Source: Thermoplasmata archaeon (lineage in GTDB: Archaea; Thermoplasmatota; Thermoplasmata; Thermoplasmatales; Thermoplasmataceae). From it: 24,836 nt of DNA. Location: contig JAJYVJ010000012.1 in NCBI GenBank assembly GCA_021792045.1, forward strand, positions 1 through 24,836. Reading direction: 5' to 3'. Below the pieces are notes generated by a model. That model had not been told where the DNA came from. It made no database searches and was given only the letters and a program-made list of their open reading frames with translations. The translations under genes and the position numbers were made by a program. Shown piece after piece: positions 8,301 to 24,771 of the stretch (position 1 is the first letter of the stretch; the number at the start of each line of letters is the position of its first letter).

Positions 8301-8621
8301 ACCTCCTCTGTAGACCTTGAAATCAGGTGCTCCTATGTTTCCCTTCCTTTGAGGTTCTTGAATCAACTTTAGATCCGTAGCTAGATCTCCTATCAAATTC
8401 TCAAAAGGAGTTCTAAAAGTCATTTCGGTAGACATGCCCGTGGCATATTTCTGTCTTATATCATTATAGTAATTTTGGATGTGAGTTAGTTCACTAGAAG
8501 GAGAATATGACAAACAAGCAGGAACTCCAAATGGTCTAATTAACATTTCGTTTGAGGCTATGGCGATCATAGACTGTGCACGTCGAGGAGAATATATGAC
8601 TGACCAATGTAAATTTGGCAT
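5376..8621 (-). CDS. Type IIG-like restriction-modification enzyme (nuclease, N6-adenine methyltransferase and probable specificity region in one chain)
   Basis: Single-chain restriction-modification protein of up to 1081 residues. The N-terminal nuclease site is visible as Asp100 in GAPDF and Glu114-x-Lys116 in GYIETK. The methyltransferase core follows: an YYTPRPIVSFIV entry motif (about 370-385), the S-adenosylmethionine motif LDPAVGTGTFL (about 405-415) and the catalytic GNPPYRG motif IV (about 530). The remaining 450 residues probably contain target recognition. There is no helicase, unlike the longer type ISP enzymes. The start is uncertain: homology-like sequence begins near residue 46 (LTHIQNYYN), so a start at Met26 or a TTG near 8505 is possible, and the first codons may lie in DNA of the adjacent group II intron. 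It converges on the defence run at 339-5350. Because it methylates and cuts with one polypeptide it could function alone. Confidence 0.9.
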   Translation of the reverse strand: MPNLHWSVIYSPRRAQSMIAIASNEMLIRPFGVPACLSYSPSSELTHIQNYYNDIRQKYATGMSTEMTFRTPFENLIGDLATDLKLIQEPQRKGNIGAPDFKVYRGGAKIGYIETKDLDVDLDREIDSDQIKKYRASADNILLTNYHRFLLIRDGVLIEDFELFAETDLEKLRFFLTEEKATIFTRLLLNFSGFSKRTVCSAEQLASELSKRTRLLKELSKEQLDEDLINSKAGLPVFSTYDFYEGVRELIPDINSDDCSDAYAQTITYGLFLAKATHPSLILDRTNASSGIPKSIGLIRRIFLNISGDLIPSNLSWIVDEIIEVLNSTDIVSVLNEITDRTNAVKDAFILFYEDFLSQYDSAKRKKMGVYYTPRPIVSFIVGSVNFVLKQLFSKNMGLANDGVKVLDPAVGTGTFLSLVYLGALLELKNNRQSGMIEDKIRKHLLKDFYGFEIQITPYILSHLKLSLVVQSWFYKLSGNDRIQIYLTNTLEKSMHHDLVSFMREISEENVTANEVKAKENLLAVIGNPPYRGLSVNKSKWIQDLLHKGYTRPDGTVDQGYYVLDGKPLGEKNPKWLQDDYVKFIRFAQWKIDQSGEGVVGYITNNAYLDNPTFRGMRQSLLKSFNRIYIVNLHGNSRLHEKSPDGGIDENVFEIKPGVAIVIFVRHAGISKQEILYYDLYGTREQKFKFLDGARLKTLNWQMLLPTSPNYFLRPEGAETGLAIRDTWKINDIFKVGSVGIVTARDSLTIRWTADEVKQTVVKFMSMDPEQARVSYQLGKDVRDWRVVDAQEDLKKEGLRGDLVIPILYRPFDVRYTYYTGKSRGFLCMPRPKVMRNMLRSNISLCIGRAGHAVGSDKPWNLAFCSTVVEDFNLFYRGGNVNFPLYLYEEKVKGKNGKTNDLRETNISPALTEQLEKYYGFRPNPEDIFAYIYSILYSGRYREKFADALNIDFPRIPFTHDSEQFLMLARLGNELLDLHVGKEKPTGNTSFEVSGTNLVKFCEYRNENVFINETQFFGNISFDVWDFQIGGYQVLNKWLKDRKSRRLSNEELVMFPQIVEVLNRTIKIMAKIDETGFLDRM

Positions 8622-9117
8622 GGGAAATTACCTGTTCATCCCATTAGCAGAGGATACATGCATTCCAGTGATGGAATGCGGGAAGTTAACTCTCTTGCGA
8701 AATCACAGGCAGCAGAGAAAGCGAACGGAATACAGCATCGTAAGATCGAAATGGGAAGGTCGAGCCCGTATGGTTTGGGCGAAGACTGATACAGAGGATA
8801 TTAACAACAGGATATGTTCCTCTGCTTCCCCGGTGTCATGCCGGCTGCATGTGAGGATAGCCATATATGGTAAATCGGGAGACCTGTGATCTCCACGAAC
8901 ATGCCCCGAAAGGTGGTTGAGTAATTGTAGCGGATTCCATAAGCCCAAAAGGCGAAACGAACCGCAAAGGATCACAAGGAGTCGGAGGGGATCATAGTAC
9001 CAGTGACATGAAGGACAGCATAACCTTCAAAGAGGAAAGGATCCCTGCTGTACGCATTCCTGTTTCGGGCAGGGGAGGACTCCATTCCCCGCTTGAAACA
9101 CAGCGAGGTACGAGGAC

Positions 9118-9398
9118 GTGAAAAGACTCGAACTGTTCCGGAACAGGATCTACCAAAGGGAAAAGGAAGAACCAGAAAGGAAATTCCACAGCCTGCATGA
9201 CAAACTGTGCAGGATCGACATCCTGCATGAGGCATGGAAAAGCGTTGCAGCCAATCATGGATCTGCAGGAACAGACGGACAGACCATAGAAGATATAAAA
9301 GAATACGGAATAGACAGGTTCCTGAAAGAACTTCAGGAACAGCTTGTTAACGAAACATACACAGTTGATGCAGTAAGAAGGGTATACGTACCCAAGGG
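9118..9398 (+). pseudogene. ltrA: Group II intron reverse transcriptase, 5' fragment
   Basis: N-terminal part of the intron-encoded reverse transcriptase/maturase, from GTG 9118 to the IS insertion point. It contains the usual opening (KLCRIDILHEAWKSV, NHGSAGTDG) and ends in VRRVYVPKG, the conserved block before RPLGIP. The frame then runs into IS sequence and stops at 9412-9414. Joining bases up to 9398 with 11537 onward gives an uninterrupted 438-residue protein, so the split is due only to the insertion. An intact enzyme would bind the intron RNA, assist splicing and perform target-primed reverse transcription. As it stands the fragment holds only reverse transcriptase domain 0 and part of domain 1 and cannot polymerise. 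Confidence 0.88.
9395..9398. repeat. 4-bp target-site duplication (left copy, AGGG)
   Basis: AGGG directly before the TGTAA left end. The matching copy is at 11533-11536 directly after the TTACA right end. Removing the element plus one copy restores the PKGDGKQRP reading frame of the reverse transcriptase. Confidence 0.85.
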
Positions 9399-9460
9399 TG
9401 TAATCGCCGGTTGAAAATTGTGCATTTTCGCCGGGATAAAAGTGATCCAGATCGCCGGTT
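9399..9460 (+). repeat. IS21 left terminal region with three 24-bp-spaced repeats
   Basis: Left transposase-binding region. CGCCGG starts at 9405, 9429 and 9453; the second and third are each followed by a run ending in TGATCCA. It pairs with the inverted right region at 11484-11532. Confidence 0.8.
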
Positions 9461-9523
9461 TAATTTTGATCCATTTCCTTATGTGGAAGATGGTCTCAAT
9501 TGTACGGGCTGGAGGTGTGGAGA

Positions 9524-10697
9524 ATGATCAGGAACTTGAAGGAACGGGGAATGAGCAACAGGGAGATAGCCAGGGAGCTTGGCATTTCCAGGAACACTGT
9601 GAGCAAGATGCTCAAGACCACAAGGGTAAAGGATCGGCAGACAAGGAAGAGAGGATCCAAGCTCGATCCTTACAGGGATAAAGTGAAAGAGCTCATTGAG
9701 AAGTACAACCTCTCCTCCGTCAGGATACTGGAGGAGATTAGAAAGCTTGGTTATGACGGCGGACACACAATACTGAAGGATTACTGTGCCACTCTCCGCC
9801 AGGGACAGAAGAATACAGGCAGTATATCGTTACGAGACTGAACCCGGTAAACAGTCACAGGTGGATTTCGGAGAGTTCGGTTACATTGAAATCGACGGAA
9901 AGTCCAGGAAATTATACGCATTCTCCATCATACTCGGGTATTCCAGGATGCGCTACGCTGAATTCACCACCGATATCTCCACGGAGAATGTCATAAAGAT
10001 GCATCTCAATGCATTCCAGTACTTTGGAGGGTTCACCGACACGATCCTGTATGACAACATGAAGCAGGTTGTCCTTGATAGAAAGATAAAGGCTTCTGAG
10101 TCTCGATTCAATCCGAAGTTCATGGACTTCGCCGAATATTATGGGATTGTAATAAGGCTCTGCTATCCCTATAGACCTGAGACAAAGGGAAAGATAGAGA
10201 ACACGATAAAATACATCAAGGGCAACTTCTGGGCTGGAAGGACATTCTCCGATCTAAATGACATCAACAACCAGTGCACTGCATGGCTGAATAAAATCAA
10301 TTCACAGATCCATGGAACAACGCATGAGATACCCATGGACAGGTGGAAACATGAGAATCTCAACCCAATCTCTGCAGTTCCCGCATACATGACAAGGAAG
10401 GAGGAATCGAGAAAGGTCTCGAGGGACTGCTACGTCTCATACAAGGGCAACAGGTATTCCATCCCATGGAAGTACGCCGGAAGGGAATGCAGGGTCATTG
10501 AGCAATCTTCACAGGTGAAGATAGAGATCGATTCCACAGTTGTTGCAGCGCATGAGATCATGGCCAGTACCGGAAGGATATCAAGGAATAAGGAGCATTT
10601 CGAGGGACTGCTGAAGGCCATAAAGGATGAAAACAGTGCTGTATATTCCCAGACTGTAGAGACAAGGGATCTGAAGAAATACGAGGAGGTGTCATGA
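9524..10697 (+). pseudogene. istA: IS21 transposase IstA with a frameshift
   Basis: DDE transposase of the IS21 element. The N-terminal part (from ATG 9524, with GAGGTG 6 bases upstream) carries a helix-turn-helix, MSNREIARELGISRNTVSKML. The C-terminal part, in the next frame, carries the catalytic core: Asp in QVDFGEFGY, Asp in LYDNMKQVV and Glu in PETKGKIENT. The first frame runs to a stop at about 9841 and the second is open from about 9786 to 10697; the switch must fall near 9795-9830, around CGCCAGGGACAGAAGAATAC, and corresponds to one extra base or two missing bases. I see no obvious slippery heptamer, so a disabling mutation or sequence error is likelier than programmed frameshifting. 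The stop overlaps istB by four bases. Confidence 0.85.
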
Positions 10698-11467
10698 TGG
10701 ATTCCTATGAGAGGGTTCATGATTACCTGAACAAGCTCGGTCTCTCCACATTCGAAAAATCCATGGATTCCTATCTGGAAACAGCACATGACAGACCGTT
10801 CATGGATATCCTTGATCATCTTCTCGCAGAGGAGGTGAAGCACAAGCTCTCAAGGAAGACGGAAAACATGCTTAACTGGTCCGGGTTTCCGTTCCGTAAA
10901 TCCGTGGAGGACTTTGATTTCTCCTTCCAGCCGTCAATTGACAGAACGGTGATAGATGATCTCCTGACATTGAGATTTATACACAACATGGAGAACGTCG
11001 TATTCCTCGGTCCACCAGGAGTGGGAAAGACGCATCTTTCCATAGCACTGGGAATGAGATCAATCATGCAGGATATTCCCGTATATTATGTATCGGCTGT
11101 GAAGCTCGTGCAGACACTCAAGAGGGATTACGATCTCAAGCGACTGGAATACCGCATAAAGACATATTCAAGATTCCGTCTCATGATAGTGGACGAGATC
11201 GGATATCTTCCCCTCACCAGAGAAGAATCCAACCTGTTCTTCCAGTTCGTATCATCCAGGTATGAGAAAAGATCGACCGTCTATACGTCGAACAAGTCAT
11301 TCAGCGATTGGGGCGAGATTTTAGGGGACCAGGTCATGGCTTCTGCAGTGCTGGATAGAATACTGCACCACTGCACTGTCATTAACATAAAGGGTGAATC
11401 GTACAGGCTGAAGGAAAGGAAGAGAAATTCCCTTCCTACGGAAAGAAGAGGTGAGAAGAGTGAGTGA
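10694..11467 (+). CDS. istB: IS21 transposition helper ATPase IstB
   Basis: AAA+ ATPase of 257 residues that assembles on DNA and stimulates IstA. Visible features are the Walker A motif GPPGVGKTH (about 107-115), the Walker B motif LMIVDEIGYLPL (about 163-174), an N-terminal helical region typical of IstB and a C-terminal basic tail LKERKRN. Length fits the family. It starts at ATG 10694, within the ATGA overlap with istA, behind a GAGGAGGTG ribosome binding site. It appears intact even though istA is frameshifted, so it could still act with an IstA supplied elsewhere in the genome. Confidence 0.93.
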   Translation: MMDSYERVHDYLNKLGLSTFEKSMDSYLETAHDRPFMDILDHLLAEEVKHKLSRKTENMLNWSGFPFRKSVEDFDFSFQPSIDRTVIDDLLTLRFIHNMENVVFLGPPGVGKTHLSIALGMRSIMQDIPVYYVSAVKLVQTLKRDYDLKRLEYRIKTYSRFRLMIVDEIGYLPLTREESNLFFQFVSSRYEKRSTVYTSNKSFSDWGEILGDQVMASAVLDRILHHCTVINIKGESYRLKERKRNSLPTERRGEKSE

Positions 11468-11483
11468 AAGTATTTATGGAGTG

Positions 11484-11532
11484 GATCAATTTTATTCCGG
11501 CGATCTTGCACAAATCTTGATCGGCGTTTACA
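11484..11532 (-). repeat. IS21 right terminal inverted region
   Basis: Read on the minus strand it begins TGTAAACGCCGATCAAG and reaches CGCCGGAATAAAATTGATCCA-like sequence 24 bases in, matching the left end block by block. Confidence 0.85.
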
Positions 11533-12572
11533 AGGGGGATGGAAAACAGCGACCGCTTGGAATACCAACGGTCAAAGATCGGATAGTACAGCAGGCAGTG
11601 AAACTGATCATCGAACCCATATTCGAAGCAGACTTCAAAGACTTCAGCTATGCATACCGCCCAAACAGATCAGCAAAGGATGCATCAGAGGAGATAAGGA
11701 AACAACTAAACTATGGACGTACCAATGTTATTGACATTGACATCAAGGGATTCTTTGATCACATCAATCATGAGAAGATGACCTTCTTCGTATCAAGGCG
11801 AATAGCTGATCCATACATCCTCAAACTCATAAGGGAATGGAAGAGGGCTGGCATTGTATTCGAAGGGGAGACAACATACCCCATGGAGGGAACTCCACAG
11901 GGTGGTGTCATATCTCCGCTGCTTGCCAATATCTACCTCAATGAACTTGATACCCTGTGGGCAAGGAGGAAGATGCATGACAGATACGGAGAGAATGCCC
12001 GGAGGAAGATGCATGACAGATACGGAGAGAATGCCCATTTGATTCGCTATTCTGATGATACTGTGATCCTCACAGACAGAAATCCTGAACATGCAATGGA
12101 CATCCTGAAGAGGATAATCTCACTCCTTGATCTTGAACTGAACATGGAGAAGACAAGGATAACAACAGCACAGGAAGGCTTCGACTTCTTGGGCGTTCAT
12201 TTCGTGAGGAAATGGAGCAGGCACAAGAACAAGGAAGCAACATACGTATATCCAAGCGAAAAGGCAGTGGAGAACTTCAGGGAAAATATAAAGGCAACGA
12301 TACCAAAGAATTACGCCTTTAGAAAACCCGTGGCAATGGCAGTGAAACAGGTCAATGCAATAATCAGGGGATGGTACAAATATTACAAGCACACAAATGC
12401 CAGATCAATTTTCGCAAGATTGGAGAGATACATTGACTGGAAGCTTGCAAAATACTACTGCTTCATTCACAAGATACCAAGAGTCTCATCAAGAAAAGAC
12501 ATATATTATAAAGTCCGTGATTATGGAATAGAAACCATGAACTGTGGAATAAAATATGTCCGTAATGCCTGA
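11533..12572 (+). pseudogene. ltrA: Group II intron reverse transcriptase/maturase, 3' fragment
   Basis: The larger part of the intron-encoded enzyme, from the IS right junction (first AGGG copy) to the TGA at 12572. It contains RPLGIPTVKDR, the FSYAYRP block, IDIDIKGFFDHI (first catalytic Asp), TPQGGVISPLLANIYLN and the catalytic RYSDD box, YSDD instead of the usual YADD. The maturase X domain follows (FDFLGVHF, then IIRGWYKYYKH). No C-terminal HNH endonuclease is visible. A frame entering from the IS right end (ATG or GTG near 11451) could express most of this fragment, but it would lack reverse transcriptase domain 0. A 36-bp tandem duplication adds 12 residues just before the YSDD strand. 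Confidence 0.9.
11965..12036 (+). repeat. Perfect 36-bp tandem duplication in the reverse transcriptase
   Basis: Two identical copies, 11965-12000 and 12001-12036, each starting GGAGGAAGATGCATGAC. The unit keeps the frame and doubles the 12 residues RRKMHDRYGENA between LDTLWA and HLIRYSDD. The copies are identical, so the event is recent. Confidence 0.97.
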
Positions 12573-15250: not shown

Positions 15251-16687
15251 TCAGACCTCCATCAGTATGTTGTCGCCCGAAAACCTCTCTATGTGCATAG
15301 CATGGGAATATTTCTCAAGCAGCGGATTGCTTGTCTGTATCATCACGCTTGTCAGATCCATCCTGCTGCATTGCCTTGCCACGTTTTCGTCAATGCTGTC
15401 TATCCCATCGCTCACAAGAACGGATTTGTAGTCCCTTCCGTTCTTCAGGACATCCTCAAGGCACGCGGTAATGTTCGTTCCGCCGTCGGCCTGAATACCT
15501 GCCAGCGTTTTCAGGAGTTCCCACATGTCCGAAATAGGTTCCCCCAGCTCGGTATCGAACAGCCTGAGCTTCAGGGTTCCGCCATGTTCCCTTACGGTCT
15601 TCGCCATCCCGATCACGCTTGCCGCTGCGACGGCAATCTTCTGTGCGTAATCGTCGATGAATGCAATTCCGCTACCCATACTGCCGGATTTATCCAGATA
15701 GACGAGGTAATTGTTCATGCTGGAATACCTCTCCCTGACGTGAGCAGTCTTGGATGCGATCTTATAGTCAAGGAGATCCTCATCAAGCATGTCCTGTGGT
15801 ATGACGTCGGGTATTTCGGAATAATAGAGCATTTTCCTTGCACCGATCGGTATGCCTCTCCTGACTGACGGCTTCACATGGGATTTCCCGGTATCGTCGG
15901 TATTGAGTCTCTTCATCACCCTGGCGAGTGATATCACAAACTTGTTCGAGAGTATGTCACGCATCTCTTCCGGGTCCGTAAGGCGTTTCATAGGAATCCC
16001 GGTATGCGAGAAGGAATTCAGCATGGATATCATGTCGTTGCTTTGCTGTGTAGCCTGTGCCGCTGCCGAGGACATCGTTCCCATTATGCTGCTATAGAGG
16101 GACTGGTTGGTCATTGTGCCGCCCTGCAGGTTGTTCAGCGCGTTCATGAAATTGTTGAAGTTAAAGGGTTGATTCCCAGGCTGATTATTCGGTTGATTTC
16201 CCTGCTGATTCCCAGGCTGATTGCTGGGCGTATTGCCGGGTTGATTTCCCTGCTGCTGTTGGTTCTGCTGCTGCATCTGCTGCATCAGGGAAGGTGGAAT
16301 CGAGCCCTGGGCTTCCTTGGCCTTCTCCACGTATGCCTGCAGGAAGTTCTTGCTTGCCATCAGGGAAAGCATCGGGTTCCTTGACACCTTGGCATTCAGT
16401 TCCTGGTATCGTGGATCCGCCATCTCCTTCTCAAGCAGTGACTTCCATGAGTTCTTGGAAAGGGGATTCAGGACGAGCTTGTCATAAGGCATGTAATGCA
16501 TCAGGTGTGCATCCATCAGGAAATGCGATCCAATGGTGACGTTCTTGTCGGAAAAATCCCTCGTCAGATCAAATGTCGCAGACCTGACGGTCGGGTCCTT
16601 GTAGGCATTCTGGTCCATGAATGACTTCCACTCATCAGGCCGGATGATCTTGTATTTCTTGTTATAGTAGGATTGTGCAGTCTGCAT
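15251..16687 (-). CDS. VWA-domain protein, partner of the MoxR ATPase
   Basis: A 478-residue protein with a C-terminal von Willebrand A domain. The metal-ion-dependent adhesion site is complete: DKSGSM near residue 328, Thr in GGTNIT near 402 and Asp in LVSDGID near 422. A Gln/Asn/Pro/Gly-rich linker with repeated NQPGN units (about 135-180) separates it from an N-terminal helical region, which contains HFLMDAHLMHYMPYDK. MoxR ATPases typically work with such VWA proteins as chaperone or metal-insertion pairs, as in CobS/CobT, and the VWA domain binds the target. The start ATG at 16687 overlaps the MoxR stop (ATGA), indicating translational coupling and a stoichiometric complex. The substrate is unknown. 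Confidence 0.88.
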   Translation of the reverse strand: MQTAQSYYNKKYKIIRPDEWKSFMDQNAYKDPTVRSATFDLTRDFSDKNVTIGSHFLMDAHLMHYMPYDKLVLNPLSKNSWKSLLEKEMADPRYQELNAKVSRNPMLSLMASKNFLQAYVEKAKEAQGSIPPSLMQQMQQQNQQQQGNQPGNTPSNQPGNQQGNQPNNQPGNQPFNFNNFMNALNNLQGGTMTNQSLYSSIMGTMSSAAAQATQQSNDMISMLNSFSHTGIPMKRLTDPEEMRDILSNKFVISLARVMKRLNTDDTGKSHVKPSVRRGIPIGARKMLYYSEIPDVIPQDMLDEDLLDYKIASKTAHVRERYSSMNNYLVYLDKSGSMGSGIAFIDDYAQKIAVAAASVIGMAKTVREHGGTLKLRLFDTELGEPISDMWELLKTLAGIQADGGTNITACLEDVLKNGRDYKSVLVSDGIDSIDENVARQCSRMDLTSVMIQTSNPLLEKYSHAMHIERFSGDNILMEV

Positions 16688-17853
16688 CAGACTATACCCC
16701 CTGCAATCTGTTTCTTGACGTCCTGGATTTTCTTGAGAACGGATTCTGCGTCATTCACGAACTGCGTGACCTCTGCCTGGTAGACGTCAAGCATGCCCTC
16801 TTTCTTGACTAACTGCCCTGCCATGTTCACAGCTTCGAGGGCTTCCTTCTCAGCATCGCCGAGGTTGCCGTTCTTCATCAGATCCCCGACCTTCGTAAGC
16901 TTCTCCTGTGCTGCCCTGAGTTCCTTCGGGTATAATGTGTCAAGGGCCTTGTTGAATGCGTTAAGCTGCTCGTCATTGTCCTGCAGAATGTATTTCGCCA
17001 CATCAACGGCAGACTTCTTTATAGGCATGTCCATGAGCCATGAATACGTTGCCACAAGGAACGGAAGGTATGTTTTTCCTATCGCTGTCCTGTCAGATAC
17101 GAAGATTCCGTTCATCCTCATCGTTGAAACGAGGGTAGCGATAATGTCTGCAATCTCCCCGGCATGTGCCTTCTCAAAAGTCTCTATTTCCGCATAGGCC
17201 TCATCCAACTCCTGCATGGATATGCCGGTCTTTACTGCACCGTTCTTATTCAGGTTAAGCATGATCCCGTTCTTGATCTTGTCAGACGGTATAGGTGAAA
17301 CAAAATGCTTCAACAGGATTCGGTCGTAGAATGCCTGCAACTCATCCCCCTGTGGAAGTTCATTTGACGCGGCGAACATGGATATCAGCGGAACAGAATG
17401 CACGGTTCCGTCGGCATCCACGAAAACCCTCTCGTTCATTATGTTCAGAAGAGTGTTCAGCGTTTCGGAAGAACCCTTGAAAACCTCGTCTATGAAGGCA
17501 ATGTTGGCTTCCGGCAGCTTTCCCTTCATCATCCTGACGTATTTGCCCTGCCTGAATGCTATCGGATCTATCGCGCCGACAATGTCGTCTGGTATGCTGT
17601 ACTTGCTCAGAAGGTAGTAATAGAATTTTCCACCTATCCTGTCAGTGAGGGATTTCAGCAATGCCGACTTAGCGGTTCCCGGTTCCCCTATCAATACGCA
17701 ATGGTTTCTGCTCAGTAATGCAAGCAGGGCTACCTTTGCCTCCTCATCCCTTCCGATGAACTCGGAACTTAGCTCCGCCAGTATCTTCCTGGCTTTCTCT
17801 TTATGGCTGGCCACTCTTTCTTGCGGTTGTAAAACTGTTTCCAATTTCCTCAA
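16687..17853 (-). CDS. MoxR-family AAA+ ATPase
   Basis: A 388-residue AAA+ ATPase of the MoxR type. Walker A is GEPGTAKSALLK (about 56-67) and Walker B is IAFIDEVFKG (about 117-126), with a SETLNTLLNIMNER block and a sensor 1 region MFAASNELPQ after it, in the order usual for MoxR. The C-terminal 120 residues are helical. The start is TTG: the codon at 17853 sits directly on a GAGGAG sequence, so the in-frame TTG at 17844, nine bases downstream of it, is an equally good choice. A TATA box lies about 30 bases upstream. It heads the MoxR-VWA-coiled-coil operon and is transcribed divergently from the gene at 18006. Confidence 0.9.
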   Translation of the reverse strand: MRKLETVLQPQERVASHKEKARKILAELSSEFIGRDEEAKVALLALLSRNHCVLIGEPGTAKSALLKSLTDRIGGKFYYYLLSKYSIPDDIVGAIDPIAFRQGKYVRMMKGKLPEANIAFIDEVFKGSSETLNTLLNIMNERVFVDADGTVHSVPLISMFAASNELPQGDELQAFYDRILLKHFVSPIPSDKIKNGIMLNLNKNGAVKTGISMQELDEAYAEIETFEKAHAGEIADIIATLVSTMRMNGIFVSDRTAIGKTYLPFLVATYSWLMDMPIKKSAVDVAKYILQDNDEQLNAFNKALDTLYPKELRAAQEKLTKVGDLMKNGNLGDAEKEALEAVNMAGQLVKKEGMLDVYQAEVTQFVNDAESVLKKIQDVKKQIAGGIV

Positions 17854-19312: not shown

Positions 19313-19456
19313 ATTCTTCATATCATTCCTCCTTGTATTGTACTGGTTACAACTGCATCTTCTATTTAATTATCGTGACTCACTCAGGTCCCATGGAGAT
19401 GCGAGAATTCACTTCACTTTCTGGTCTCGCGATTTTCCAGTTTTAACCCTTTAAAA

Positions 19457-19500
19457 CGCAAAAAGGGGAACGCCAGATCTTCTGATCCAACATTCCCCTT
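19457..19500 (-). terminator. Terminator-like hairpin, copy 1
   Basis: On the minus strand AAGGGGAA pairs with TTCCCCTT and is followed by TTTGCGTTTT. It is the outer member of a tandem pair after the operon's last gene. Confidence 0.55.
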
Positions 19501-19591
19501 AATTCAATCTTCTAGTATTTAACTGCTGATGGAAGAAAGTTCCAATAGTCTCTACATTTCTTCCATGCATTTTTAAATACGCGGCTTCCGA

Positions 19592-19634
19592 AACGCAAAA
19601 AGGGGAAGCCCGCCATTGCGAACTTCCCCTCTTA
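19592..19634 (-). terminator. Terminator-like hairpin, copy 2
   Basis: On the minus strand GAGGGGAAG pairs with CTTCCCCTT and is followed by TTTGCGTTTCGG. It begins only a few bases after the stop of the 67-residue gene (19637). Confidence 0.6.
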
Positions 19635-19636
19635 TT

Positions 19637-19840
19637 TTATGGAAGGATGATACCCGATTTCCTTGCAAGATCACTCAACTTGTTATACAGGTCTTCAAGG
19701 GCGATATGAATGAGATTCGCATCCGTGAACCTCCCCTCGTCGCCTTCCTTGCGTTTGTATCCATAATCCTTGTTCGTGATAATCTTGTTGATGGCATCCA
19801 TCAGGGATACCGTATCATCTTCCAAAACCACTGTTCTCAT
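19637..19840 (-). CDS. Small protein of unknown function, last gene of the PCNA operon
   Basis: A 67-residue protein. It opens with a strand-like MRTVVLEDDTVSL followed by helices, a layout compatible with a ribbon-helix-helix or similar small DNA-binding fold, but the match is only by shape. The ribosome binding site AGGAGA directly follows a GCC-GGAA-GGC hairpin (19854-19863), the leader type shared with three other genes of the operon. Tandem terminator-like hairpins follow it. Confidence 0.65.
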   Translation of the reverse strand: MRTVVLEDDTVSLMDAINKIITNKDYGYKRKEGDEGRFTDANLIHIALEDLYNKLSDLARKSGIILP

Positions 19841-19853
19841 CTTTCTGTCTCCT

Positions 19854-19863
19854 GCCTTCCGGC
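19854..19863 (-). promoter_or_regulatory. Hairpin-SD leader, member 1
   Basis: On the minus strand TTTTATATC, then the GCCGGAAGGC hairpin with GGAA loop, then AGGAGA and ATG at 19840. Same layout as at 20779, 22212 and 23885. Confidence 0.6.
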
Positions 19864-19881
19864 GATATAAAATTTAACATG

Positions 19882-20769
19882 TCAGCCGAACACGTCCGGA
19901 ACCCATCTTCTGCCTGCACCAAGAAGGACCAGCCGCATATCGTTGAGCTTGTTCACGATCTCGTCCGAAGTTTTCCGGATCTCCTGTGGAACGTCAACTT
20001 TCGGCATGTATCCTATCTTTGTCACGTATCCGTTCTCGGGCGTATTCAAGAGCTGGTTAACATGTTCTTCAAATAAATATTTCAACTCTGCAAGGTGATT
20101 CTGAAACCACCTTCTCTTTTTAAGCTCGGGCATGTTTTTCAGACTGTCTGCCCTTGCCATCATGTCGTTATAGTATTCCTCGATCTTCTCGTCCTCGAAC
20201 CCGGCAAGGTCATATCCAAGCCAGTAGAGGGCAGATCGGAGGTATATGTATCTGTTTCTCAGTTCTTCAAGCATCCACATGGCTTCATTGCCAGGTGGCC
20301 TTGGTCCAGGCATCAAGCTGTCATGCTCAAGCCGGACCGTCGTCAATACGTTCCTGAAAAATTCATCTTCAGGAACTTGTGTCTGTGGTGAGAAATCATG
20401 GAAACTGTCACCGGTAAATATCTTAAGTTTACCGAATATTTCCCTCACCACGTAATTTGTTCTTCTGTCGTTGCTTGTTGTTATCAATCCATAACCGAGC
20501 AGATCGTCAAAACAGACAGGAACCTTCGTTCTCGGCACGAAGGGCATGTTCTTACTCCATGCCCTCACGTAATATTCCCTTTCAAAAAACTCTCCATCGA
20601 CCCGTTCAACCTCCTTGATTGTTTCGTAAGTCACGTATGTGCTTACCGGATCGGGAATGGGTTTTCCGTAAACGTATGGTTCCCAATATTCTGCCACATG
20701 GGCATCGTATATGCTTCCGCCCATTGTCAGCTCTACTCGGTCTATTTTTAATTCAACCAACTTTCCCAC
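19882..20769 (-). CDS. Unknown protein of the PCNA operon
   Basis: A 295-residue protein that I do not recognise. It begins at GTG 20769, four bases after a GGAGG ribosome binding site that is fused to a GCC-GAAA-GGC hairpin; a TTG nine bases further in is an alternative. The N-terminal half is strand-rich and aromatic (AEYWEPYVYGKPIPDP, EREYYVRAWSKNMPF); the C-terminal half is helical and charged (NRYIYLRSALYWLGYDLAG, then MPELKKRRWFQNHLAELKYL). No membrane segment, cysteine cluster or nucleotide motif is seen. It follows the N-terminally extended PCNA gene, so a clamp-dependent replication or packaging role is possible but unproven. Confidence 0.7.
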   Translation of the reverse strand: MGKLVELKIDRVELTMGGSIYDAHVAEYWEPYVYGKPIPDPVSTYVTYETIKEVERVDGEFFEREYYVRAWSKNMPFVPRTKVPVCFDDLLGYGLITTSNDRRTNYVVREIFGKLKIFTGDSFHDFSPQTQVPEDEFFRNVLTTVRLEHDSLMPGPRPPGNEAMWMLEELRNRYIYLRSALYWLGYDLAGFEDEKIEEYYNDMMARADSLKNMPELKKRRWFQNHLAELKYLFEEHVNQLLNTPENGYVTKIGYMPKVDVPQEIRKTSDEIVNKLNDMRLVLLGAGRRWVPDVFG

Positions 20770-20773
20770 TTTT

Positions 20774-20788
20774 CCTCCGCCTTTCGGC
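20774..20788 (-). promoter_or_regulatory. Hairpin-SD leader, member 2
   Basis: On the minus strand ATTTTATTTA, then GCCGAAAGGC (20779-20788, GAAA loop), then GGAGG (20774-20778), then the GTG start at 20769. Confidence 0.65.
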
Positions 20789-20828
20789 TAAATAAAATTA
20801 TAATTAATGTATTAAGTTTCTCGCTCCA

Positions 20829-21866
20829 TCACTCTGCGCGTGGAGCCAGTAAAAATGTTATGTTCGTATATCCACGATTTCCGGAATACCTTACAGTAAC
20901 CGGATAATTTGTTTTCAATTCGATTTTAAGTTCATCGTTTTTCTTGAGAAATCTCAAGAAGTTCATGAAGTACTCAGCCGGATACAGCGCCGATACAGTG
21001 TCCGGTCCGTATATCCTAAAGTCCTTCATCATGTCAATAGGTATCTCTGTTTTCACTTCTTCGCTGTCAGATTTTGCTTTCAGTATGACAGACCTCGTTA
21101 CCGGGTCCATCATGATCTTGAATTCATCTGATACATGCTCTGCTTTTCCAAGAAAATCTTTCAGATATCCAGCATTAATGACGAAATAATTTTCCGCCAC
21201 AATGACTGGCATCTTCGGGGTTGTCACTTCATTCGGATCGAGCAGCGGAATCCTTATAGAATTCAGCCCGTCACTGACGGTACATGTTTCGCTCTTACTC
21301 TTGTTCCACTCAAACGTTACTGTATCCTTCGGATTCAGTTTCAGGTCCAGTATCTTACCCAAGGCGATCGCATACCTTGCGTCGTTCTCGTCAAAATACC
21401 ACTCGATAAATGTCTCCCTGCTCATGACCACGTCTACCATGGCCACGTGCGCCGGGTCCACTATTCTTGTATGCAGCCCTTCCCTTGAGATTTCGAGTAT
21501 ACCCTCGTCCGCAAATCTTGTCAATATTTGCAGTACTGGCTTGAGAAGACCGTAATCCACTCTGGATACGCCTCTAACGTTATTCAAGTGTATTTGCATT
21601 AGCTTCTTCTTCTCAGCCTCGCTCAACTCCGGGGCGACTTTCGCAGGTTCCTTATCTTCCTGGCTCTTCGCCAGTTCCTCTGCTTTCGCCGCCCTTCTCT
21701 TTGCTGCACCAACAAGAAGACCCGGTTGGTCGTATTCATCTACAGTGGCGTTCTTTGGCTCATTGCTTTCGCTCTGTGCCTGGACGTCTACCTGTTCCGT
21801 CTTCTGTGGTTCTATTCCCTCTCTCTTTTCCGATTCTGTGGCTTTACCCACTTCTGTGTTTTCCAT
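20829..21866 (-). CDS. PCNA-like sliding clamp with a long N-terminal extension
   Basis: A 345-residue homologue of the archaeal sliding clamp, which encircles DNA and tethers polymerase and other partners. The PCNA core starts near residue 90 (MQIHLNNVRG) and is about 250 residues, the family's usual length. Landmarks are EGLHTRIVDPAHVAMVDV, the interdomain region with PVIVAENYFVINAGYLKDFL, and the C terminus TNITFLLAPRAE, equivalent to the LAPRIE-type tail. The first 90 residues are charged, Glu/Lys/Ala/Gln-rich and probably disordered, an unusual addition that could be a tether for partners. It has a 25-base leader block identical to that of the second PCNA gene. It differs strongly from that paralogue, so the two may form a heteromeric ring. 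Confidence 0.9.
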   Translation of the reverse strand: MENTEVGKATESEKREGIEPQKTEQVDVQAQSESNEPKNATVDEYDQPGLLVGAAKRRAAKAEELAKSQEDKEPAKVAPELSEAEKKKLMQIHLNNVRGVSRVDYGLLKPVLQILTRFADEGILEISREGLHTRIVDPAHVAMVDVVMSRETFIEWYFDENDARYAIALGKILDLKLNPKDTVTFEWNKSKSETCTVSDGLNSIRIPLLDPNEVTTPKMPVIVAENYFVINAGYLKDFLGKAEHVSDEFKIMMDPVTRSVILKAKSDSEEVKTEIPIDMMKDFRIYGPDTVSALYPAEYFMNFLRFLKKNDELKIELKTNYPVTVRYSGNRGYTNITFLLAPRAE

Positions 21867-21875
21867 TTCTTTTTT

Positions 21876-21905
21876 CTCCTCCCGGAATTCATACCGGGCA
21901 ACATA
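21876..21905 (-). promoter_or_regulatory. PCNA-type hairpin leader, copy 1
   Basis: On the minus strand TATGTTG, then CCCGG-TATGAATT-CCGGG, then GAGGAG and ATG 21866. Bases 21881-21905 are identical to 24747-24771 upstream of the other PCNA gene. The stem sits directly on the ribosome binding site. Confidence 0.75.
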
Positions 21906-21911
21906 GGGGGC

Positions 21912-22196
21912 TTAACCCTCCCGATCCGGATTGTTCGTAATACAATCGATCAGCCTCCTTGGGGCTTTGTCATACTTCCGCAAATGATCCATGGACTGTT
22001 CAAGCGCGTAAATCGCCTGGCGTCCCTTATTATCCAAAACCTCATAGTAATCTATCGTGTCTATCACCGCAATCATATCCAGATCGGGTTTGTCTGTTAC
22101 TGCCCTCACAAATTCCACCAAGTCCTCTGTCGTATTCTTTGAATACTTCAGGATATACCTGGCAGTTTCCTTTTCATCTCTGCTCATTCGTTTCAT
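21912..22196 (-). CDS. Small helical protein of unknown function
   Basis: A 94-residue, mostly helical, charged protein (MKRMSRDEKETARYILKY, then DLVEFVRAVTDKPDLD), lacking any motif I recognise. The start ATG 22196 lies 10 bases after a GGAGG ribosome binding site fused to a GCCC-GAAA-GGGC hairpin. Its stop is just upstream of the leader of the extended PCNA gene, so the two are probably cotranscribed. Confidence 0.65.
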   Translation of the reverse strand: MKRMSRDEKETARYILKYSKNTTEDLVEFVRAVTDKPDLDMIAVIDTIDYYEVLDNKGRQAIYALEQSMDHLRKYDKAPRRLIDCITNNPDREG

Positions 22197-22206
22197 TTTT
22201 TCAATT

Positions 22207-22223
22207 CCTCCGCCCTTTCGGGC
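22207..22223 (-). promoter_or_regulatory. Hairpin-SD leader, member 3
   Basis: On the minus strand, starting right after the upstream stop: TTTTATTTT, GCCCGAAAGGGC (22212-22223), GGAGG (22207-22211), ATG 22196. It is the longest stem of the set. Confidence 0.65.
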
Positions 22224-22232
22224 AAAATAAAA

Positions 22233-22523
22233 TTATTGTTTTCCGTTCCTCAAGGATATAATCATCTCGACCCTTCGATCTACAGACAATTCCAAGACTT
22301 TCCTGAGTTTCTCTATTGTATGTTCGCTATAAGCCAGGTAGAGCCCTATTATGGACTCTATAGCTGATAGCATGATGTCATCACTTATTTGTTTCTTTGT
22401 TGCTAATTCCAGGATGTCTCTTATTGCCTGCTTTACAGCATTATACTTCTGCCTCTCCTCTGGCTGAATACTATCCTCAGTCGGAAATAGTTTTACCATT
22501 TTTTCCACGTCTTTGTCATTCAT
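22233..22523 (-). CDS. Small helical protein of unknown function
   Basis: A 96-residue protein from ATG 22523. In-frame ATG 22535 and TTG 22547 exist, but 22523 is favoured because the preceding bases TGTAGCC-ATGAA match those at the start of the gene at 23433. It is helical and charged, with a hydrophobic middle (DDIMLSAIESIIGLYLAY) more like a packed helix than a membrane span. There is no Shine-Dalgarno sequence. A terminator-like hairpin lies immediately upstream (22544-22581), so it may need its own promoter or antitermination. Confidence 0.6.
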   Translation of the reverse strand: MNDKDVEKMVKLFPTEDSIQPEERQKYNAVKQAIRDILELATKKQISDDIMLSAIESIIGLYLAYSEHTIEKLRKVLELSVDRRVEMIISLRNGKQ

Positions 22524-22540
22524 GGCTACATTCATACATA

Positions 22541-22586
22541 AACGCAAAGAGGGGAAGCCCCCTTTCGTGAACTTCCCCTTTACTTT
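22541..22586 (-). terminator. Terminator-like hairpin, copy 3
   Basis: On the minus strand AAGGGGAAG pairs with CTTCCCCTC and is followed by TTTGCGTTTATG. It resembles the hairpins at 19457 and 19592 and lies between the zinc-ribbon gene and the 96-residue gene, inside the presumed operon. Confidence 0.55.
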
Positions 22587-22622
22587 TTAATGAAATCAAG
22601 GCAAAATAAAATTAATGTCGAT

Positions 22623-23066
22623 TTAAAATTCAAAATCCTGTGGTCTGATCGGCAGAACGACAGGGATAAATTTTTCCTCCTTTTGAGGAATCTTACGTAT
22701 AGGTTCATCACGCTTTTTCGTATTGAACTCTTCGTCGACTTCCGCGGCCAACTCATAGGTTCCAGTATCGTCCCCGTCTTCGTCGATTATCCTGGTGATC
22801 GTCCCATCCTTTGCGAGTTTTTCCACAAATTCCGTGACGCTCATATCAAGATTCTCACCGCAGTTAGGACACTGGATCTTATATGTGACATCCGCATCGT
22901 CCTCATCATACGACCTAACGTCATTGAGCCATTCCGTCTCCCAATTCTTGTCGCTGCCATCATCCCTGCATGATAACATTGTATCAATATCGGTCAAAAT
23001 ACCGGTAACGCGGTATTCGACTTTCACATTGTTCACTATTGCATAATTACATTTCTTGCAGTTCAT
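22623..23066 (-). CDS. Zinc-ribbon protein of unknown function
   Basis: A 147-residue acidic protein with two cysteine pairs, CKKC at residues 3-6 and CPNC near residue 66, that could bind one zinc as a split ribbon. Two further cysteines are present (one near residue 33). Between and after them are Asp-rich stretches (RSYDEDDADVTY, IDEDGDDTG). Its start at 23066 has an AGGAG ribosome binding site that lies in the loop of a small TTGC/GCAA stem, which could mask it. A terminator-like hairpin follows its stop. It may be a transcription- or replication-associated zinc protein; the family is unknown. Confidence 0.65.
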   Translation of the reverse strand: MNCKKCNYAIVNNVKVEYRVTGILTDIDTMLSCRDDGSDKNWETEWLNDVRSYDEDDADVTYKIQCPNCGENLDMSVTEFVEKLAKDGTITRIIDEDGDDTGTYELAAEVDEEFNTKKRDEPIRKIPQKEEKFIPVVLPIRPQDFEF

Positions 23067-23097
23067 TTTGCATCTCCTGCAACATAAATAAAATAAA

Positions 23098-23433
23098 TTA
23101 TCCGATTACGCGGAAAATTCCATCTTTAACGATTATTTCGACTGTGTCGCCGTAATCACCATGTACCATGTCCTCAACAAACTCATCAATCAACCATGGG
23201 TTGTCCTCATCACCATACGCCACTACGTATTCCCCCGGGTTCATGTTAGTAAGAACAATGTCTTCCATGCTGTCGCCGCCACACTCGTCCTCAATATCTT
23301 GCAAGCTCAATTCGCTTGAATAAGCTTCCTCTTGTCTTTTCCGCACTCTCTTTGCTGCCTTTTCCAAATAGTTTTCATGATGCACCAGGTCAGAAGTCAT
23401 GCTAACCTGTTCATCAAATAAATCATTGTTCAT
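23098..23433 (-). CDS. Acidic small protein of unknown function
   Basis: A 111-residue protein with a basic helix (residues about 22-35, YLEKAAKRVRKRQEEAY) followed by a strongly acidic, strand-rich second half (DECGGDSMEDIVL, then VEDMVHGDYGD). It starts 11 bases after the upstream gene's stop, without a Shine-Dalgarno sequence; the start context TGTAGCC-ATGAA is shared with the gene at 22523. No cofactor motif is visible. The acidity could suggest a DNA-mimic or partner-binding role, which is speculation. Confidence 0.65.
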   Translation of the reverse strand: MNNDLFDEQVSMTSDLVHHENYLEKAAKRVRKRQEEAYSSELSLQDIEDECGGDSMEDIVLTNMNPGEYVVAYGDEDNPWLIDEFVEDMVHGDYGDTVEIIVKDGIFRVIG

Positions 23434-23444
23434 GGCTACATAAA

Positions 23445-23873
23445 TTAGAGATCGGCTTCCACCAGGTCTCTTAATACGATTTCAACGCAATCATCTGTAC
23501 TCAGATTGCTTGTATCTATGGGTATTCCTTTCTTCTTCAGGATCTCATTAGCTTTATCCATTTCCCATCCCCATCCCCAACCGGATGATTCATCAACGCC
23601 TCGCGGCGTTATTCTGGTCACCATCAGATCATTATCTTCCAGCAGGGCATGACTCGCCATCATGTGATAAACCATATCTTTCCTGCTTTTAAACGCTTCA
23701 ATGATTCCTTCCTCAAAGCATTCACTGCATAAATGATATCTGCCATCACTTAGGTTTGTCATTCCTTCAAGACTATTACGGAAATTGGTCTCTGCATGGT
23801 ATTCTTCCCGTTTTGGTTTATTAGATGTGAGACTGCTTTCTAATTTCCCAAAGCTTTCCCAATCACTATCCAT
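23445..23873 (-). CDS. C2H2 zinc-finger-like protein
   Basis: A 142-residue protein beginning at ATG 23873. The frame is open upstream for 20 more codons, but this start is chosen because a hairpin-SD leader (GCCGAAAGGC then GGAG) ends 7 bases before it. Residues about 48-78 hold a Cys-x2-Cys and a His-x4-His (LCSECFEEG, then YHMMASH) at roughly C2H2 spacing, so it probably binds zinc and perhaps nucleic acid. A Trp-rich SSGWGWGWEMDK motif follows, then a C-terminal helical region. It lies directly after the second PCNA gene and is probably cotranslated with it. Confidence 0.7.
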   Translation of the reverse strand: MDSDWESFGKLESSLTSNKPKREEYHAETNFRNSLEGMTNLSDGRYHLCSECFEEGIIEAFKSRKDMVYHMMASHALLEDNDLMVTRITPRGVDESSGWGWGWEMDKANEILKKKGIPIDTSNLSTDDCVEIVLRDLVEADL

Positions 23874-23880
23874 ATTCTTT

Positions 23881-23894
23881 CTCCGCCTTTCGGC
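23881..23894 (-). promoter_or_regulatory. Hairpin-SD leader, member 4
   Basis: On the minus strand, right after the PCNA stop TAA: TTTTTATTTT, GCCGAAAGGC (23885-23894), GGAG (23881-23884), ATG 23873. It fixes the start of the zinc-finger gene. Confidence 0.65.
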
Positions 23895-23904
23895 AAAATA
23901 AAAA

Positions 23905-24729
23905 TTACGGGATTCTCGGTGCGACCATGACATATCCCTTCACGTCGTCGCCGTTCTCCCCGATTTTAAAGTTCAATTTTATAGGGCCGGGATTCTTTTC
24001 TTCCACGACCTTACCGTTTTTAGTTGTTTCAGTTGTTGTTATAAATCTGACCATTACATCTCCCTTCTGGAAATTCCTGGTCACCTTTTCAAGTATATGT
24101 GTACTGAACAGGGATGCAATCCCTTCTTCGCCCTTGAAGTCTCCTTTCAGGATCTTCACTGGCAATTCCATTTCAGTCTTTTCTCTTGTCGCAGACAGAA
24201 TCAGGTTAGATTTGTCTGCAGTAAGTTTTACGTCGTCTGCCACATCGGCAGCCACCTTCAACGCGGTATGCAACTGCTTTCCGTTCACCACCGCACCAGT
24301 TTTGTAGTTTATATTTGGTATGTTCACGGTCATTTTCTCTTCGTAGATGGGGAATGTCTTCACAAACCCATCCGCTCCCGACACCGTAACTAAATCCTTC
24401 TTCTGGGAGAATTTGATTCTGCCCTTGATATACATAAGGACACCTTTCAAATCATTCAGGCTTATCCCGAACGTCTGGTCACTGTTTGTGTACTTTATGC
24501 AACGCTTTGCATCGATATATTCGACACACAACGAAACACGTGCTATGTCTGCACCTGCAATTCTTATTCCGTCCTTGGCCCCTGACATCAATACATGATC
24601 GACGTCAATCGACTTGAAGACCTTCATTGCATCATACAGTGACATCTGATCCATCTCGAACGATAGACCGTCCTGTCCACTCTCAATAGCTGTCCTCTCC
24701 TCTCTCCCAATAGTTGTCGTTTCAACCAT
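23905..24729 (-). CDS. PCNA-like sliding clamp, second paralogue
   Basis: A 274-residue clamp homologue. After about 20 extra N-terminal residues the PCNA fold begins (LSFEMDQMSLYDAMKVFKSI). The region DGIRIAGADIARVSLCVEY corresponds to the DGL-type strand of archaeal PCNA, and the C terminus GYVMVAPRIP to the LAPRIE-like tail. It is weakly similar to the extended clamp at 20829-21866. It starts at ATG 24729 behind GGAG and the shared 25-base hairpin leader, and is followed by the zinc-finger gene with only a hairpin-SD linker. Mobile elements of archaea are known to carry extra PCNA genes; two on one element is less usual. A heterotrimeric or competing clamp is an inference. Confidence 0.85.
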   Translation of the reverse strand: MVETTTIGREERTAIESGQDGLSFEMDQMSLYDAMKVFKSIDVDHVLMSGAKDGIRIAGADIARVSLCVEYIDAKRCIKYTNSDQTFGISLNDLKGVLMYIKGRIKFSQKKDLVTVSGADGFVKTFPIYEEKMTVNIPNINYKTGAVVNGKQLHTALKVAADVADDVKLTADKSNLILSATREKTEMELPVKILKGDFKGEEGIASLFSTHILEKVTRNFQKGDVMVRFITTTETTKNGKVVEEKNPGPIKLNFKIGENGDDVKGYVMVAPRIP

Positions 24730-24742
24730 TTCTTTTTCACTC

Positions 24743-24771
24743 CTTTCCCGGAATTCATACCGGGCAACATA
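24743..24771 (-). promoter_or_regulatory. PCNA-type hairpin leader, copy 2
   Basis: Same CCCGG-TATGAATT-CCGGG hairpin and preceding TATGTTG as copy 1 (24747-24771 equals 21881-21905), followed by AAAGGAG and ATG 24729. A TTTAAT element near 24790 may be the promoter. Confidence 0.75.

Follow-up and report, generated by a model that had tools for sequence, protein, structure and literature searches.

Short repeats set before many genes of a single mobile element were described in the Cluster K mycobacteriophages under the names of SAS and ESAS. As far as the available part of that report goes (PMC3203893), these repeats contain a Shine-Dalgarno (SD) sequence, are nearly absent from the host genome examined, and in about half of the cases carry an upstream inverted repeat with a variable spacer, their function being given there as unknown. 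They are the nearest described kind that we found for the junctions reported here, which join the genes of a 24,836-nucleotide (nt) stretch of Thermoplasmata archaeon DNA (assembly GCA_021792045.1, contig JAJYVJ010000012.1; "the window" is this whole stretch) and of elements with the same architecture in three Thermoplasmatales genomes (G054, G010 and G103). At these junctions a U-tract core, often fused to the stop of the upstream gene, is joined to one of several start modules, among them a short hairpin followed directly by an SD, and we tentatively propose that they may be intercistronic RNA connectors.

We consider the junctions a variant of the SAS/ESAS kind, with which they share a repeated SD-containing module before many element genes, its rarity in the host and, often, an upstream inverted repeat. 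In the available part of the phage report, the SAS is a fixed 13-base pair (bp) sequence and the ESAS follows a consensus as an imperfect repeat of 17 bp, whereas the archaeal stems measure 3-9 bp and mostly differ between elements; moreover, the hairpins described here often have GNRA loops, the part found most widely is a U-tract placed at the stop of the upstream gene, and the host is an archaeon. A search for the SAS 13-mer GGGATAGGAGCCC with up to 2 mismatches gave 0 sites in three of the elements and 2 in that of G054, with no repeat, and one of the latter (GGGATAGGAGAAC) lies in the leader of the gene at 11792. Imperfect inverted repeats of 17 bp that share a consensus, the ESAS trait, were absent from the leaders. 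A second likeness is to the U-tract terminators of aCPSF1 (FttA), which, in the available parts of the sources (PMC8716108, PMC10450193), also have a U-tract past the stop, and the hosts of our elements encode aCPSF1; here, in contrast, the tract lies within a recurring sequence at most element gene ends and is joined to a start module. The plastid intercistronic expression element would be a system that works alike, being a short element between operon genes where cleavage yields stable, translatable monocistronic mRNAs (PMC2230500, available part); no sequence relation is claimed, and cleavage, shown in the plastid, is inferred only in our case. Neither Thermoplasma nor Ferroplasma is mentioned in the available part of a survey of structured RNAs from 2010 (PMC2864571). 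Judged by top titles and the starts of abstracts, no report of such junctions in archaeal elements was found in the open-licence PMC literature.

To our knowledge, little is known about how archaea give co-transcribed genes separate expression, and we regard the choice between SD-led and leaderless starts in these organisms as an open question. The elements described here mix hairpin-plus-SD, SD-only and bare-AUG starts behind a single core, in tens of natural copies and with several stem variants, so that the question of start choice becomes directly testable. If our proposal were true, they would also offer a compact operon connector for archaeal genetics.

The U-tract core at gene ends

The core is an A/T run followed by [GT]T[TCA]G[CT], or UUUU(UU)GUNGY as RNA. 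In the G010 element it often reads TAATTTTTTGTTGC, with TAA as the upstream stop, and is followed by ATG at once, by an SD, or by a hairpin and an SD. Using a pattern that was broadened after the data had been inspected, 83 matches were obtained in the four elements (that of the window and its three relatives), from which 2 at edges and 7 without a nearby stop or TTTT were dropped to leave 74. A core starts between -4 and +40 nt from the stop in 57 of the 73 genes on the gene strand of the elements (19/24 in G010, 13/16 in G054, 6/9 in the 5.3 kb of the window and 19/24 in G103), compared with 2 of 68 opposite-strand calls in the elements and 26 of 903 open reading frames (ORFs) of at least 100 amino acids (aa) in 700 kb of host DNA from G054 and G010. 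An earlier count of close co-directional gene pairs found a core in 13/16 element pairs versus 4/276 host pairs. Seen from the cores, for 58 of the 74 the stop of an open frame 50 codons or more in length is no further than 25 nt away, and 40 directly adjoin the stop. Their orientation is that of the genes, TTTT-bearing cores on the gene and the opposite strand numbering 25 and 4 in G010, 14 and 2 in G054, 4 and 0 in the window, and 26 and 9 in G103. A U-tract after the stop codon, a trait of aCPSF1-dependent terminators, is thus seen in the element cores.

A first-pass annotation of the window had described a unit made of an AT-rich run, a hairpin and an SD-like sequence. The hairpin and SD are real, but the unit was incomplete: its commonest part is the core at the upstream stop, and the hairpin with SD is just one among several start modules. 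In the element of G054, hairpin and SD also occur downstream of a TATA-like site without any U-tract, an arrangement that would be expected with the U-tract as the junction part and the hairpin with SD as the start part. Among 117 genomes of the order, 69 match the core pattern, which had been derived from G010, G054 and the window themselves, and single copies therefore mean nothing; a dense array occurs in G010 only, where 13 of 19 matches fall within 7.6 kb.

Hairpins that keep their pairing

A stem of at least 4 bp (at least 3 of them GC pairs) together with an SD follows 34 of the 74 cores, whereas 200 shuffles, with the four elements pooled, gave 0.6 on average and never more than 4. An earlier test without G103 and with a looser SD pattern, which used 48 of 54 cores, had given 19 of 48 versus 0.49 by shuffle. 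The 34 leaders hold 17 different stem strings, some of them register variants, and most stems differ between elements with pairing retained. When the 3' arms of 19 stems were re-dealt, 4.5 paired on average and 10 at most (1000 trials), which shows only the diversity of the stems because own arms pair by construction. In a 12-row alignment, which was fitted to a covariance model, all cells pair and 3 of the 4 pairs are changed on both sides, a result reached by 0 of 500 shuffles, whereas the number of further pair types was equalled by 52 of 500. Of the 21 tetraloops, 17 belong to the GNRA class, some being copies internal to G103, and the other hairpins have other loop lengths. In the leaders of the genes for putative PCNA-type clamps, two in each element, a hairpin is present in 8/8 and a recognisable SD in 7/8, the first clamp gene of G054 having GAGAG only; their stems are CCCGG in the window, GTCCCT and GGCTTCT in G054, GTTCCCC and GTCTCCCG in G010, and CCCTTC in G103. 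Within G103 the stems are nearly uniform, and modules are therefore also copied between junctions, so these near copies are not independent.

Since hand-made alignments misaligned the stems, a first covariance model (R1) was built from four leaders of equal length, one of the window (22207..22234, before a 94-aa gene) and three of G054. When run over 80 PCNA loci (1.24 Mb), R1 returned five matches with E values up to 10; three lay in the G010 element, among them the only strong one (E 7e-8). A second model (R2), made from the 12 matches of R1 with G103 excluded, found G103 through four matches within 9.3 kb (E 0.001 to 0.015). At E<=0.05, R2 matched 9 of the 117 genomes of the order, with more than one hit only in G054 (8, including one at 1.11 Mb), G103 (4) and G010 (2), and at E<=0.01 it matched 8 of 400 genomes of the class, again with more than one hit only in these three; the single hits were judged from their sequence contexts at six loci, leaving out G294. 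With the first leader pattern, 14 matches were obtained in the 117 genomes versus 6 for a reversed control. Rfam 15 at its gathering threshold gave no family for the leaders, the window matching only an unrelated group II intron, and 0 matches on the loci of the G010, G054 and G103 elements (L041, L097 and L258, respectively).

The first-pass annotation had argued that stem length varied while pairing was kept, so that the structure seemed selected. The shuffle test, the compensatory changes in the model-fitted alignment, the GNRA loops and the detection of elements absent from the training set of the model all speak for this idea and support a repeated cis-acting RNA part. The covariance search proposed there brought further copies, and the idea survived it.

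Leaders and junctions in the window

The four minus-strand leaders first noticed in the window are present as described, with an AT run, a GC stem of 3-4 bp, a GNRA loop (the GGAA loop, which had been set apart, is also GNRA) and SD-like purines touching the stem. Two of the leaders had been said to start within a few bases of the upstream stop; before the genes that start at 22196 and 23873, the AT run indeed overlaps the upstream TAA.

19849..19874, minus strand: leader of a 67-aa gene starting at 19840; AT run 19864-19874, SD AGGAG 19849-19853
19854-19863, minus strand: hairpin of the 67-aa gene, GCC GGAA GGC, GCCGGAAGGC
20774..20799, minus strand: leader of a 295-aa gene with GTG start at 20769; core 20789-20799, SD GGAGG 20774-20778
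20779-20788, minus strand: hairpin of the 295-aa gene, GCC GAAA GGC, GCCGAAAGGC; covariance model E 1.2e-4
22207..22234, minus strand: leader of a 94-aa gene starting at 22196; core 22224-22234 overlapping the upstream TAA stop, SD GGAGG 22207-22211
22212-22223, minus strand: hairpin of the 94-aa gene, GCCC GAAA GGGC, GCCCGAAAGGGC
23880..23906, minus strand: leader of a 142-aa gene starting at 23873; core 23895-23906 overlapping the TAA of the upstream clamp gene, purines GGAGA 23880-23884
23885-23894, minus strand: hairpin of the 142-aa gene, GCC GAAA GGC, GCCGAAAGGC; covariance model E 2.9e-5

On its own, the window gives weaker evidence than the pooled elements, because three of its four leader stems have 3 bp (predicted -1.4 kcal/mol at 55 C), a single core passes the 4-bp stem test, and the leader of the gene starting at 19840 falls outside the core pattern, R1 reaching it at E 1.3 only. 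The four leaders are real but too small a set: hairpins also precede both clamp genes, where a 26-nt block with a 5-bp CCCGG/CCGGG hairpin is identical (21880-21905 and 24746-24771), and variants of the core junction occur at 23433 and 23066.

21876..21905, minus strand: leader of clamp gene 1 (20829-21866); weak core TATGTTGC, SD AGGAG 21876-21880
21881-21898, minus strand: hairpin of clamp gene 1, CCCGG-TATGAATT-CCGGG
24740..24771, minus strand: leader of clamp gene 2 (23905-24729); core ATTATGTTGC, SD AGGAG 24740-24744
24747-24764, minus strand: hairpin of clamp gene 2, CCCGG-TATGAATT-CCGGG
23434..23447, minus strand: hairpin-less junction (type A), TAA, TTTATGTAGCC, then the ATG of a 111-aa gene (23098-23433); no SD
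23074..23089, minus strand: SD-only junction (type C), ATTTATGTTGC then AGGAG, before a 147-aa gene (22623-23066)
22600..22618, minus strand: core a short way downstream of the stop of gene 22623-23066, running into a terminator-like hairpin and not directly into a gene start
22540..22587, minus strand: terminator-like hairpin, GGGGAAG...CTTCCCC followed by TCTTTGCGTTT
19591..19638, minus strand: terminator-like hairpin followed by TTTTTGCGTTT, after the stop of gene 19637-19840
19454..19505, minus strand: second terminator-like hairpin in tandem, followed by TTTTTGCGTTT

The three terminator-like shapes of the window (19454-19505, 19591-19638 and 22540-22587) all lie downstream of gene stops. 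Shapes of this bacterial-looking, intrinsic-terminator type (e.g., GGGGAA...TTCCCC followed by TTTTTGCGTTT) recur in the window and in L041, L097 and L081, the three related loci that the scan covered (G103 was left out).

A proposed connector between cistrons and its alternatives

Our favoured reading, held with a confidence that falls slightly short of balanced, is that the junctions would be intercistronic RNA connectors through the gene blocks of a Thermoplasmatales mobile-element family, each made of a U-tract 3'-end or processing signal and a start module. The U-tract core, often fused to the upstream UAA, would probably act as a 3'-end signal, either for termination or for endonucleolytic processing, and the enzyme would plausibly be the archaeal KH/beta-CASP ribonuclease aCPSF1/FttA, whose gene (TIGR03675) is found in 3/3 hosts. 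The next cistron would be given its start in one of three ways: by a short stem, in many cases capped by a GNRA loop, with GGAG(G) or a similar sequence immediately behind it, by an SD alone, or by an AUG 0-1 nt past the core, which is near-leaderless. After processing, the downstream mRNA might then begin with the hairpin as its protected 5' end, which would also mark the ribosome-binding site, and for bare-AUG junctions a near-leaderless processed 5' end is an attractive possibility. Among the functions that the first-pass annotation had offered, transcript processing would be the best fit. In the available parts of the sources, aCPSF1 of M. maripaludis binds U-tracts (PMC8716108), and internal termination sites occur in 38% of the operons of that species (PMC10450193). 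In our hosts, T5 tracts after stops are found at 12% of 148 (G054) and 26% of 98 (G010) convergent ends, compared with 6% of 139 and 4% of 137 close co-directional pairs, respectively. A more far-reaching form of the same idea, which we consider possible though doubtful, would make each gene a cassette closed by a stop and U-tract and opened by a hairpin and SD or by a bare AUG, with one long transcript cut into single-gene mRNAs; some of these would be near-leaderless, the hairpin would serve both as 5' stabiliser and as start mark, and the whole would amount to an element-wide operon-splitting code in archaea.

Several observations weigh against a connector that is processed at its U-tract. 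The contrast in host T-tracts is weak in G054 and based on crude gene calls, and efficient binding of aCPSF1 in M. maripaludis needed two U4 tracts, according to the available part of the source (PMC8716108); the cores inspected mostly show, by eye, a single run of 4-7 T. Moreover, GUNGY precedes SDs after two TATA-like sites that have no U-tract, and hairpin and SD also occur at 10/276 close host pairs. Genes of type A junctions could simply reinitiate. Finally, 34 of the 74 cores (17 of 26 in G103) do not abut a stop, and the core therefore also travels with the start module.

These cores away from stop codons also suit the rival that we rate closest behind, unlikely as it seems to us, namely a translation-only module like SAS/ESAS, in which the hairpin would serve to mark or insulate the SD, with the AU-rich core as an unpaired stretch for 30S landing or reinitiation on an uncut polycistronic mRNA. 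A few nt separate the hairpin from the SD, a putative 16S tail complementary to the SDs, GGATCACCTC(C/T)T, occurs once in each of three hosts, and the stop-to-start distance of type A junctions in G010, mostly 11-13 nt, would suit reinitiation. In contrast, some cores lie at the end of a gene without an immediately following start; 5 of 9 inspected cores, picked by eye, lie there before a terminator-like hairpin or a TATA-like site, which also speaks for the 3'-end role in our favoured reading. Folding predictions do not help this explanation either, the native hairpin leaving the SD no more accessible than shuffled ones (better in 15/26 leaders at 37 C and 16/26 at 55 C), so that the earlier suggestion of 30S loading through an exposed SD finds no folding support. 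If the repeat were instead a linker at the DNA level, through which genes are swapped or duplicated as cassettes by recombination with the RNA features being incidental, the near identity of the G103 module at many junctions and the presence of duplicated genes (a G103 pair at 76%, and a gene pair of G010 at 82% and 66%) would be accounted for. Such a linker would need neither stems that vary between elements and yet pair nor mostly GNRA tetraloops, and the strand bias tracks gene direction, all of which makes it improbable.

Still less probable, in our view, is a binding site for an element-encoded RNA-binding regulator acting on all junctions together: the module is rare in host DNA and near-uniform within G103, but the stem sequence is not conserved between elements, and no evident RNA-binding family was found among the element proteins scanned, many of which had no match while many others lay outside the scan. 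Least credible of all is a promoter, by which the AT-rich core, or a TATA box just upstream, would yield a transcript for each gene. The core is indeed AT-rich and lies 20-30 nt ahead of several start codons, and a TATA-like site is located 8-38 nt before 2 of the 7 window cores, where 0.3 would be expected, a further point against the connector; single leaders of the window may therefore have promoters. Over the four elements, however, such sites accompany 4 of 76 cores versus about 1.9 expected at random positions, the distance from core to start ranges from 0 to about 60 nt, with type A cores abutting the ATG too closely for a TATA box, and promoter-like TTATATACCC sites are located elsewhere in G010 and G054.

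The elements and their genes

The proteins of the window point to a Thermoplasmatales mobile element. Its 295-aa protein has a relative at 68% named as Thermoplasmatales, the named genomes with the best PCNA relatives belong to Thermoplasmata, and there is a gene of the Ta1207 family. Two of its proteins look like PCNA-type clamps: clamp 1 passes the Pfam PCNA_N cut-off, and clamp 2, without a Pfam match above cut-off, resembles the first clamp of G010. A profile of clamp 2 matches PCNA-sized genes in 117 of 400 class genomes, very strongly in G054 and G010 only, and the clamp of the G103 element is in the same list at E 1.5e-8. Two divergent PCNA-type clamps are coded in each of the four elements (in the window at 20829-21866 and 23905-24729; L041; L097; L258), with a long extension at the N-terminus of the first in the window, P0002 and G054. 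Clamp 1 matched 10 haloarchaeal virus records in a phage collection, at about 23% identity; a plasmid collection gave no match. Candidate relatives of the clamp, MoxR and 295-aa proteins in IMG/VR, and of the 295-aa protein by alignment in genome contigs, were not confirmed.

The element of G054 (L097), reached through a leader-like pattern, lies on a 1.96-Mb contig with both clamp genes and about 10 hairpin leaders of varied sequence, and shares 11 ORF pairs in similar order with that of G010 (L041). All three relatives have homologous clamp genes. On the G010 contig, a phage-type integrase and a D5-like primase lie within 28 kb of the clamp gene, as putative members of the element. The G103 element (L258), whose genome was found by the covariance model, has clamp, MoxR and VWA-like homologues, and G114 has a partial relative (L096; proteins compared). 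The further leader of G054 at 1.11 Mb is probably a remnant of such an element, because it adjoins genes related to a small gene pair of G010. This two-gene cassette occurs twice in the G010 element (L041 7954-8452 and 10791-11310; 82% and 66% identity), and its relatives adjoin the leader in L257 (G054:C1 near 1110788).

Searches of IMG/VR with three leader and core patterns returned 9 stretches, 25 stretches and 0, one of the nine being leader-like in appearance: the viral contig L101 (IMGVR_UViG_3300025132_000411) has the site TTTATTTAGCCCTTAGGGCAGGAGGTAAAAATG at 6486-6509.

Also present in the window are genes for a bpMoxR ATPase, a group II intron maturase and a transposase that carries rve and Mu-type domains, as well as restriction-type genes. 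Pfam gave no match for the neighbour of MoxR; on our reading of its sequence, this gene is VWA-like. This pair of a bpMoxR-type ATPase and a VWA-like gene is common to four loci (window 15251-17853, L041 15542-18058, L258 and L096) and was not seen in the G054 stretch examined. At 8610-12572 of the window, a group II intron structure (8610-8842, plus strand) and the maturase (11451-12572) enclose the transposase gene, whose neighbour is IstB-like, also on our reading, and insertion of the transposase seems to have split the intron.

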